Positions 1 through 8,944 of a stretch of DNA of 12,643 bases are shown in pieces; the stretch's first letter is position 1; every line of letters starts with the position of its first letter. Below the pieces are notes generated by a model, which saw only the letters and a program-made list of their open reading frames with translations, did not search any database and was not told the origin of the DNA. Position numbers and translations under genes: made by a program. Origin of the DNA: Clostridia bacterium (GTDB taxonomy: Bacteria > Bacillota_A > Clostridia > Oscillospirales > Acutalibacteraceae); assembly GCA_017441045.1 (NCBI GenBank), contig JAFSAK010000040.1:1-12643 (forward strand), in the 5' to 3' direction.

Positions 1-371
1 GACATAGACGAAGAATAATACCAACCTAAAAATCTACCGATTTTATAAGCGTGGTCGGCTGTAAGGACGGTACCCGCCTCGCCTCTGAAACCATCGGTGC
101 CGAAATATTTAAAGTTATAATCAACAACTTCGGTGGGGGTGAAAAGGGGCTCTGTATAGGTAGGAGCCAAGGGAATTTCATCCTTTAATAAGTCATCAAG
201 AGAAATATTAAAAATATTTGAAAGTTTTAAAACAATATTAAGTTCCGGAATGGATTTATCCGATTCCCATTTGGAAACAGATTGTCTTGAAACCTCAAGT
301 TTTTCTGCAAGTTGCTCTTGAGAAATTTTAAGTGCTGTGCGGAGAATGGAAATTTTTTGTCCTAATGTCAT
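1..371 (-). CDS. XRE helix-turn-helix / phosphoglucosamine mutase (GlmM-like) fusion, 3' end cut by the window
   Basis: The reading frame starts at ATG 369-371 and stays open to base 1, giving 123 full codons. Residues 5-65 are a classical XRE/Cro-C1 helix-turn-helix, with the HTH at about 17-36 (SQEQLAEKLEVSRQSVSKWE). After a roughly 20-residue Pro/Thr-rich linker (66-86), residues 88-120 match the start of GlmM-type phosphohexomutases: KYFGTDGFRGEA, then TADHAYKIGRFLGWYY. GlmM converts glucosamine-6-phosphate to glucosamine-1-phosphate for UDP-GlcNAc. The catalytic serine loop lies beyond the window, so activity cannot be judged. An AGGAGGT at 379-386 supports this start. There is no in-frame ATG or GTG between the HTH and the mutase, and no Shine-Dalgarno in the linker, so a separate mutase start is unlikely. 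The gene has its own promoter and is separated from the upstream CDF gene by a terminator. The fusion is seen directly; a regulatory role is inferred. It could instead belong to the closely related phosphoglucomutase/phosphomannomutase group. Confidence 0.85.
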   Translation of the reverse strand, partial: MTLGQKISILRTALKISQEQLAEKLEVSRQSVSKWESDKSIPELNIVLKLSNIFNISLDDLLKDEIPLAPTYTEPLFTPTEVVDYNFKYFGTDGFRGEAGTVLTADHAYKIGRFLGWYYSSSM

Positions 372-398
372 AAAAATGACCTCCTTCTACGATTATCA

Positions 399-427
399 AT
401 TTTAATATAGTATCTCCGCACCGTCAA
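399..427 (-). promoter_or_regulatory. Sigma-A-type promoter of the HTH-GlmM fusion gene
   Basis: On the minus strand, TTGACG (422-427) and TAAAAT (399-404) are separated by exactly 17 nt, with AGGAGGT about 13 nt further downstream and then the ATG at 371. This gives the fusion gene a promoter independent of the operon to its right. Confidence 0.65.
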
Positions 428-452
428 GCAATTATTGTAAGCATCTTTTTGT

Positions 453-465
453 CAACCGTTGGTTG
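453..465. repeat. Small inverted repeat CAACC-GTT-GGTTG upstream of the HTH-GlmM gene
   Basis: Two perfect 5-bp arms (453-457 and 461-465) flank a 3-bp centre. The repeat lies about 26 bp upstream of the -35 hexamer of the HTH-GlmM promoter, between that promoter and the terminator of the neighbouring operon. XRE proteins often bind short inverted repeats near their own promoters, so this could be an operator, but repeats of this size also occur by chance. Confidence 0.3.
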
Positions 466-472
466 CCAAAAT

Positions 473-500
473 AAAAAAACCGCGTAATCACGCGGTTTTT
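473..500 (-). terminator. Rho-independent terminator of the murF-ddl-CDF operon
   Basis: A perfect 7-bp stem (ACCGCGT 479-485, ACGCGGT 490-496) closes a 4-nt loop. An A run (473-478) on one side and a T run (497-500) on the other extend the stem. Read on the minus strand it follows the CDF stop codon by about 30 nt and ends in a long U tract. It therefore insulates the HTH-GlmM promoter from the operon. The flanking A/T runs would also let it work weakly on the plus strand. Confidence 0.85.
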
Positions 501-5393: not shown

Positions 5394-5759
5394 ATGAAGA
5401 AAAAACCGAAAAAAATTTTCAAAAATACGCTTATGGGAATCCTCATAGGCATAGTTAACGGGTGTTTTGGCGCAGGGGGCGGTATGCTTGCGGTGCCGCT
5501 ACTGAAAAGAAACGGTATGGAGGTTAAGGAAAGTCATGCCAATGCCGTAGCGGTGATACTTCCCATAACCGTTATAAGCGCCATAGTTTATATGTGGAAA
5601 GGTTATGTGGAATTTTCCGATGCATTACCCTTTATTCCATCGGGAGTAATCGGCGCGGGTTTAGGCACTCTTATATTAAAGAAAATTTCACCGTTTTGGC
5701 TTAAAAGAATATTCGGCGGATTTATGGTTTATGCGGGTGTCCGCCTGATATTAAGATGA
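5394..5759 (+). CDS. Half-size TauE/SafE-like membrane protein, first of a pair
   Basis: This small integral membrane protein of 121 residues corresponds to one of the two repeats of TauE/SafE (DUF81) anion exporters, which are usually about 250 residues. A Lys-rich N-terminus (1-10) precedes hydrophobic segments at about 11-37, 49-68, 78-95 and 103-119. The repeat signature GCFGAGGG (23-30) and the following HANAVAVILPITVISAIVY (48-66) are typical of the first half of the family. The stop overlaps the start of the next gene (ATGA), so translation is probably coupled and the two proteins probably form a complex equal to one full transporter. GGTGAT just before the ATG gives only a modest ribosome binding site. 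TauE-family proteins are linked to sulfite, sulfoacetate or other small organic anions; the substrate here is unknown. A frameshift splitting one gene is an alternative. Confidence 0.8.
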   Translation: MKKKPKKIFKNTLMGILIGIVNGCFGAGGGMLAVPLLKRNGMEVKESHANAVAVILPITVISAIVYMWKGYVEFSDALPFIPSGVIGAGLGTLILKKISPFWLKRIFGGFMVYAGVRLILR

Positions 5760-6130
5760 GTATGGGCGCCCTTTTAGCAGGGCTTTTATCGGGAATTATA
5801 GGTGGAATGGGGCTTGGCGGCGGCGCCGTTCTCATTATTTATTTAACCGTATTTGCCGATACCGAACAGTTAAAAGCGCAGGGGATAAATCTTTTGTTTT
5901 TTATCCCTATAGCCCTTACGGCGCTTGGTATTTATGTATTTAAAAAACAAATAAAATGGAAAACCGTTTTACCCTTGGCGCTCGGCGGGATTCTAGGAGC
6001 GGTGGCAGGAATATTCCTCGCGGACTTTATCGGCGGCGAGTGGACGGCGCGGCTTTTCGGCGGTTTCATAGCGTTTTTAGGACTCAAAGAAATATTTTTT
6101 ACAAAGAAACCTTGCAACAAGGAGCCGTAG
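5756..6130 (+). CDS. Half-size TauE/SafE-like membrane protein, second of a pair
   Basis: This 124-residue protein is paralogous to the preceding one. GGMGLGGG (16-23) repeats the glycine signature, followed by AQGINLLFFIPIALTALGIY (41-60), which corresponds to the second half of full-length TauE/SafE proteins. Hydrophobic segments lie at about 4-32, 43-62, 71-91 and 98-115. The two proteins end alike: RIFGGFMVYAG in the first, RLFGGFIAFLG here. There is no clear Shine-Dalgarno before the ATG, which fits translational coupling through the 4-nt overlap. The 3' end of the gene carries the -35 hexamer of the lexA promoter. It is probably the obligate partner of the first half; homodimers of either half cannot be excluded. 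Confidence 0.8.
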   Translation: MSMGALLAGLLSGIIGGMGLGGGAVLIIYLTVFADTEQLKAQGINLLFFIPIALTALGIYVFKKQIKWKTVLPLALGGILGAVAGIFLADFIGGEWTARLFGGFIAFLGLKEIFFTKKPCNKEP

Positions 6131-8743: not shown

Positions 8744-8944
8744 ATGAAAATCACAAAAGATATGCTTATAGGCGATGTACTTGATATTGACAGAGGCGCC
8801 GCAACCTACTTTTTTGAAATAGGTATGCATTGTCTTGGTTGCCCCGCTTCAAGAGGCGAAACCATTGAGCAGGCATGCAGTGTTCACGGAACTGATTGCG
8901 ATGCTTTGCTAGCAAAACTTAACGCATATTTTGCCGATAAATAA
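8744..8944 (+). CDS. DUF1858 small redox-type protein
   Basis: This 66-residue cytoplasmic protein belongs to the DUF1858 family, known as the domain associated with hybrid-cluster proteins and similar redox systems. The signature is the stretch FFEIGMHCLGCPASRGETIE (23-42) with Cys30 and Cys33 as a CxxC-like pair. Two further cysteines (45 and 52) follow. The pair could form a redox disulfide or bind metal; no specific reaction is established for the family. GAAAGGAA (8727-8734) lies 9 nt before the start. The stop codon overlaps the trmK start by one base (TAATG), so it is translationally linked to trmK, but no functional link between the two is known to me. Confidence 0.85.
   Translation: MKITKDMLIGDVLDIDRGAATYFFEIGMHCLGCPASRGETIEQACSVHGTDCDALLAKLNAYFADK

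Follow-up and report, generated by a model that had tools for sequence, protein, structure and literature searches.

An XRE DNA-Binding Domain Fused to a GlmM-Type Phosphoglucosamine Mutase in Clostridia and Bacilli, and a Candidate Operator in the Promoter of the Fused Gene

The Fused Gene and Its Relatives

The stretch of DNA analyzed here (hereafter the window; 12,643 nucleotides from a Clostridia bacterium, GenBank assembly GCA_017441045.1, contig JAFSAK010000040.1) carries at its left end a gene that starts with an XRE helix-turn-helix (HTH) domain, continues into the start of the mutase GlmM and is cut by the window edge (Table 1). The first-pass annotation had read this gene as an in-frame fusion, and this reading is borne out: a single open frame leads from an ATG to the window edge, Pfam HTH_3 covers its residues 9–61 at 61.8 bits (cut-off 23), and the TIGR01455 (glmM) match begins at residue 90, at 16.9 bits on a stub that is too short for the full-length cut-off. 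The closest relative, L001, is 97% identical over the 123 amino acids, and its frame continues to 545 amino acids with a mutase part that scores 501.6 bits.

Table 1. Features at the left end of the window
Feature	Position	Strand	Basis
XRE-GlmM fusion gene, 5' part, 123 codons, runs off the window	3..371	-	open frame, HTH_3 and TIGR01455; 29 relatives
XRE helix-turn-helix domain, residues 1–65	177..371	-	HTH_3 at residues 9–61; five helices, L001 model residues 3–62
Variable linker, residues 66–87	111..176	-	mean conservation 0.47; pLDDT <50 at L001 model residues 70–82
Start of GlmM mutase domain, residues 88–123	3..110	-	TIGR01455 from residue 90; full domain in L001
Shine-Dalgarno-like AAGGAGGT	379..386	-	read from sequence
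Promoter-like pair TTGACG-17-TAAAAT	399..427	-	consensus match alone; equally scored pair farther upstream
Half-site-like ATTGCTTGA, overlapping the -35	424..432	-	such a half-site at the same place in 28/33 Clostridia fused promoters
Operator-like palindrome GCAACCAACGGTTGA	452..466	-	window copy; conserved in relatives
Terminator-like hairpin between the fusion gene and the upstream ddl/efflux genes	475..500	-	

Among the best 80 of 158 confirmed loci that were kept from a scan of genome contigs, the fusion is found in at least 29 (L001–L029), none of which bears the title of a cultured strain. These loci align over residues 1–121 at 50–97% identity, and 27 of them hold complete open reading frames of 544–548 amino acids with the GlmM active-site motifs retained, the other two (L004 and L014) running off their contigs; L030 and L053, which match over the HTH, are not fusions. 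Because 29 loci align across the junction and 27 of the frames are complete, a frameshift or an assembly error, which the first-pass annotation had kept in view, is very unlikely. A protein search with residues 1–130 of L001 gave 2989 matches at E ≤1e-10 among 7999 scored candidates, and among the matches listed the HTH and PGM_PMM Pfam domains are both present in 120 of 120, under the source name "phosphoglucosamine mutase". Of 300 genomes sampled from the GTDB family to which L001 belongs, 30 have the HTH–linker–mutase junction (G178 and G056 in this sample being cut by contig ends); it is also present in 11 of 291 from the class of L001 and in 25 of 96 from the family of a Bacilli member, and all three samples partly overlap genomes already known from the contig scan. 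The architecture thus recurs across Clostridia and Bacilli and is no isolated artefact, and the fusion is a real, conserved protein. On a tree of 54 fused and 55 unfused rows, built by a quick method and with long branches flagged, the fused label needs three changes (e.g., one gain and two losses), which would fit one origin of the fusion or more than one.

The mutase part of the relatives exceeds the curated TIGR01455 cut-off of 447.55 bits (L001 as given above; L010, 494.7 bits), and the fold of the L001 model matches GlmM of B. subtilis (7ojr), B. anthracis (3pdk) and S. aureus (6gyz), with the same mutase domain and catalytic loops. Compared to ordinary GlmM, the fusion has approximately 87 extra N-terminal residues, comprising the XRE domain and the linker, and the unfused GlmM proteins considered here begin, as a rule, within a few residues of KYFGTDG, in agreement with the first-pass annotation. 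The catalytic loops of the window's own gene fall outside the window, and conservation was thus read from 51 relatives, in which S191-H192-N193, D337-G338-D339, G421-E422, R507 and S509-P513 are invariant or nearly so; we take these stretches to be the serine, metal, sugar and phosphate loops of GlmM. The mutase, including its catalytic serine loop, is therefore intact in the relatives. Judging by these profile, fold and motif matches, the fused protein is GlmM, the phosphoglucosamine mutase that converts GlcN-6-P to GlcN-1-P, and a core enzyme of peptidoglycan precursor synthesis.

Searches for a further mutase of GlmM grade came up empty in 50 of the 56 fused genomes; most of these genomes are drafts, and the absence is therefore provisional. 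This comprises 28 of 29 genomes without a second GlmM-grade match, with G006 having a stand-alone copy, and 22 of 27 further genomes without a second match at E ≤1e-60, such a match being present in G056, G100, G135, G146 and G240. A second fragment on another contig of G004 was taken as the rest of a split fusion, and the fusion of G014 is cut.

Across 53 aligned proteins, mean conservation is 0.72 in the HTH (0.90 over residues 28–38), 0.47 in the linker and 0.76 in the mutase. R29, Q30, S33, K34, W35 and E36 do not vary across 51 sequences; HTH residues of this type are also frequent in other XRE proteins. The dN/dS of the HTH is 0.00–0.11, near the mutase value, in the 11 measurable of 13 gene pairs, with dS saturated in two of the 13 pairs and >1 in several others. 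The HTH is under purifying selection, which, together with the palindrome described below, contradicts the structural remnant that the first-pass annotation had offered as an alternative. The L001 model (mean pLDDT 87.7) places five helices in residues 3–62, and the solved XRE structures nearest to the fused HTH are 9k3w, and also ICEBs1 7t8i and CylR2 1utx. Residues 70–82 of the same model, in the linker between the XRE domain and the mutase, have low predicted confidence, and the linker is probably flexible.

The further claim that no start lies between the two domains is nearly right. Downstream of codon 60 and ahead of the mutase, 12 of 56 genes (55 loci and the window) do have an in-frame ATG, none with more than 4/6 Shine-Dalgarno matches, and the window, alone among the 56, has an in-frame TTG (codon 68) with 5/6 matches. 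An internal start with a convincing Shine-Dalgarno sequence is not conserved among these 56 genes.

A Palindrome in the Promoters of Fused Genes

Upstream of the fusion gene lies a 15-bp palindrome, GCAACYNNNRGTTGC, of the form GCAAC-N5-GTTGC, which was derived by eye from the upstream regions of fused genes, and which in the window sits inside positions 372–470, the region where a binding test had earlier been proposed. Within 200 bp of the start, the exact palindrome is present in 33 of 56 fused promoters (55 relatives and the window, with L105 left out as its start is cut), and 48 of the 56 have a copy with no more than one mismatch, compared to 0.1 expected from Markov shuffles; this first count is descriptive, because motif and count come from the same promoter set. 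Among unfused glmM promoters (43, with Lachnospiraceae contributing many), no site comes closer to the palindrome than three mismatches. In a held-out test with its criterion fixed beforehand, 18 of 25 new fused promoters pass (0.02 expected), corresponding to 10 of 10 in Clostridia, all exact, and 8 of 15 in Bacilli. A site with at most one mismatch is absent from seven of the 25 held-out and eight of the 56 first-set promoters; all seven of the former and six of the latter fall in the Bacilli group, or have 3–5 mismatches there. The variant GCAACYNNNRGTTGAC (GTTGAC form) occurs once per genome in six of six genomes of the window clade, always at the fusion (G003, which has the GTTGC form, was left out of this search). 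As a single case, the unfused GlmM L161, which is nested in a fused clade, has no such site upstream.

We also observed, near the -35 of several Bacilli fused promoters and in the register of the palindrome, a second box of approximately GTAAA-N5-GTTAA/GTTAC (upstream of L007, L009–L017, L019, L022, L029, L168, L173 and L176), which is perhaps a diverged operator. Several of the Bacilli promoters without a passing palindrome carry a related box, of the form GTAAA-N5-GTTAC.

Outside the fused gene, the genome-wide search covered exact GCAACYNNNRGTTGC sites in Clostridia genomes, with the GTTGAC form searched in the six genomes noted above. Of the 42 exact sites that turned up in 33 fused Clostridia genomes, the fused gene accounts for 24. 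Three of the remaining 18 precede other XRE genes (L112, L121 and L123), 10 fall within long open frames (>240 codons) and five have no assignment; among these 18 sites, no further target common to the fused Clostridia genomes was seen. The same search in 33 unfused members of the family gave 20 exact sites, 13 of which precede ordinary XRE genes (L127–L130, L132, L133, L137, L138, L140–L143 and L145; nine flagged by script, and L127, L129, L132 and L140 read by eye), as would be expected of an XRE self-operator, and GCAACYNNNRGTTGC is accordingly placed, by its genomic positions, as a putative general self-operator of this XRE type. A TTGGTAGA-like element 3' of the palindrome, read by eye, is common to the ordinary XRE promoters and some fused promoters, suggesting that the fusion acquired an XRE promoter along with the HTH. 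This points to a possible route by which a housekeeping gene was placed behind an autoregulated XRE gene, whose promoter layout apparently came along.

Relative to a promoter-like pair, 28 of the 31 Clostridia rows, among them the window, have the operator centre at approximately -61 to -67; 25 of these placements use the best pair (which in the window is tied with another) and three the second-best. In L004 and L081, where the promoter reads TTGACA-17-TATAAT, the operator is centred at -39 and spans the -35, and L084 offers no unambiguous placement. Among 17 Bacilli rows, 16 have the operator at +11 to +31, L017 by way of the second-best pair only. Positions across the -35 and past the start speak for repression as the predicted outcome of binding. 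A centre near -65, as in Clostridia, is also a place used by activators, and in these promoters the putative regulation could have either sign. A half-site, [GC]TTG[CGA], follows the operator by 15–27 bases and adjoins the -35 in 28 of 33 Clostridia promoters (shuffle control: mean 1.7, maximum 7), although this interval was picked after viewing the same promoters, and the TTG there may simply be that of the -35 itself.

Neighboring Genes

A GlmU-C-like hexapeptide protein, for which the best NCBIfam matches are the C-terminal parts of GlmU-type proteins, below cut-off, is encoded downstream of the fusion in 37 of 56 loci. The gene nagB is downstream in 25 (the L010 copy exceeding the TIGR00502 cut-off) and divergent in six, and glmS is directly downstream in two. 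At least one of these neighbors is present in 45 of the 56 loci, with three contigs ending at the gene; L001 has none of them, and has a phosphoribosyltransferase-like gene instead. Unfused glmM can have such neighbors too, and the neighborhood therefore tells us what would be regulated jointly with the fusion but does not prove function, which weakens the operon as an argument for co-option. Where nagB is divergent (L018, L023–L026 and L028), it shares a short intergenic region with the fused glmM, such that one operator could serve both promoters. The GlmU-C-like protein is a stand-alone product of approximately 220–250 amino acids lacking the nucleotidyltransferase domain (L010:7553-8299 and 36 other fused loci), and is possibly a separate GlcN-1-P acetyltransferase; the same protein type is found beside unfused glmM in L040, L048 and L152.

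Three further candidates were considered and rejected. The cell-wall theme that the first-pass annotation had drawn from murF and ddl does not hold as an envelope regulon of the fusion: both genes are upstream of the fusion in the same orientation, past the terminator-like hairpin, and the recurrent neighbors are those described above. When the neighboring genes of the 56 related loci were clustered, no cluster that took in one of the window's four neighbors exceeded two members, a comparison in which the L001 contig, with only 665 bases upstream, is too short to show conservation in the closest kin. The glmS ribozyme (RF00234) is over cut-off in two of 47 fused and three of 33 unfused genomes, and is present in G001, the nearest relative of the window; being as rare with the fusion as without it, it gives no sign that the fusion replaces it. 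Loss of a DAC (CdaA-type) gene is likewise not supported, the DAC domain being found in 54 of 56 fused and 24 of 24 unfused genomes.

Predicted Autoregulation and Alternative Readings

With a DNA-binding domain of its own and a matching site upstream of its gene, the enzyme probably controls its own amount. We consider it likely that the fused GlmM regulates its own gene or operon autogenously, acting through the palindrome in its promoter and probably as a repressor. In this mechanism, the cell's GlmM would carry an N-terminal XRE domain on a flexible linker, the two XRE domains of a GlmM dimer would bind the palindrome, and binding would regulate transcription of the gene, most likely negatively; where amino-sugar genes are co-transcribed with the fused glmM, they would be regulated together with it. 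We prefer this reading because the palindrome goes with the fusion, the HTH is under selection, and the same site precedes XRE genes. Against it count the centre near -65 in Clostridia, the promoters that lack the site, and the other XRE proteins that could use it (L112, L121 and L123).

The fusion shares with XRE autoregulators an HTH_3 domain over cut-off and a palindrome before its own gene, and differs from them in that its C-terminal part is a metabolic enzyme. C proteins, whose fusions to restriction endonucleases we compare with it below, are XRE-type. GlmM with an XRE domain is in this respect a variation on known fusions of enzymes to DNA-binding domains (cf. PutA). Trifunctional PutA carries an N-terminal DNA-binding domain on a metabolic enzyme and represses its own regulon, and its switching has been shown (PMC5293562). 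The GlmM fusion is alike in joining a DNA-binding and a catalytic domain in one chain, both under selection, with its regulation predicted; PutA, in contrast, is a ribbon-helix-helix protein of proline catabolism, and the fusion an XRE protein of wall-sugar synthesis. In fusions of C proteins to restriction endonucleases, a regulator fused to an enzyme acts on its own promoter (PMC3850674); there the enzyme is a restriction enzyme and the cases are few, whereas the GlmM fusion concerns core metabolism and extends across Clostridia and Bacilli. By analogy, the fused GlmM most probably works like these two systems. Within a literature search of titles and the starts of abstracts, with preprints and most subscription papers outside it, neither an XRE-GlmM fusion nor its operator is reported, and GCAACYNNNRGTTGC may already be among the 223 XRE motif clusters in the supplements of PMC12565409.

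A possible extension of autoregulation, which we advance tentatively, is that the fused protein is a true trigger enzyme, as the first-pass annotation had envisaged. DNA binding would then be switched by GlcN-6-P or GlcN-1-P, by a sugar bisphosphate or by phosphorylation of the catalytic serine, so that the operon follows amino-sugar flux. GlmM might in this way combine sensing and transcriptional control at the amino-sugar branch point, with its occupancy by GlcN-6-P or GlcN-1-P or its phosphorylation state gating binding to GCAAC-N5-GTTGC; we hold this to be somewhat doubtful. The catalytic domain is fully retained, and the operon partners, namely the GlmU-C-like protein (37/56) and NagB (25 downstream, 6 divergent), act on the same metabolites. 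However, unfused glmM can have these neighbors, the glmS ribozyme is equally rare with and without the fusion, and a linker of low predicted confidence offers no obvious allosteric path. If this were true, one polypeptide would set the balance between wall-precursor synthesis (GlmM and the GlmU-C-like protein) and recycling (NagB), with no need of a separate regulator.

That another XRE protein of the cell binds the palindrome, with the fused HTH serving something else or cross-talking, is unlikely. This would be in line with the palindrome preceding ordinary XRE genes (unfused genomes, 13/20 sites; fused genomes, three of the 18 other sites), but the site goes with the fusion (48/56 compared to 0/43, and 18/25 held out), and in six of six genomes the sole site of the GTTGAC form is at the fusion. 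GlmM is also a partner of the c-di-AMP synthase CdaA, complexes of the two have been solved for other species, and a DAC domain is present in nearly all fused genomes (54/56). The HTH could therefore have another role, such as oligomerization or placing the enzyme on DNA or near CdaA, with no regulation of the promoter, but we consider this more improbable still, as it leaves the palindrome unexplained and the DAC domain is as common in unfused genomes (24/24). Finally, an inert HTH remnant, or a mutase made separately from an internal start, is very improbable: the window's TTG, the linker ATGs in 12 of 56 genes and the three changes on the tree could be read in its favor, but the HTH has a dN/dS near that of the mutase and invariant DNA-contact positions, and no well-formed start is conserved between the domains.

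Returning to the predicted autoregulation, what lends it weight is that in many Clostridia and Bacilli genomes the usually sole GlmM found, an enzyme for a cell-wall sugar, carries its own DNA-binding domain, under selection and with its own conserved site, and that the fusion is found in several groups of gut bacteria. As the site is short and defined, both regulation of its own operon by the enzyme and switching by substrate are testable now.

Elsewhere in the window, two adjacent half-size genes on the plus strand (5394–5759 and 5756–6130; 121 and 124 amino acids, with a 4-base overlap) each match the C-terminal half only of the TauE/SafE profile, and the pair is a possible two-gene split of a transporter. 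Also on the plus strand, a 66-amino acid DUF1858 protein is encoded at 8744–8944, directly before a TrmK-like methyltransferase gene.
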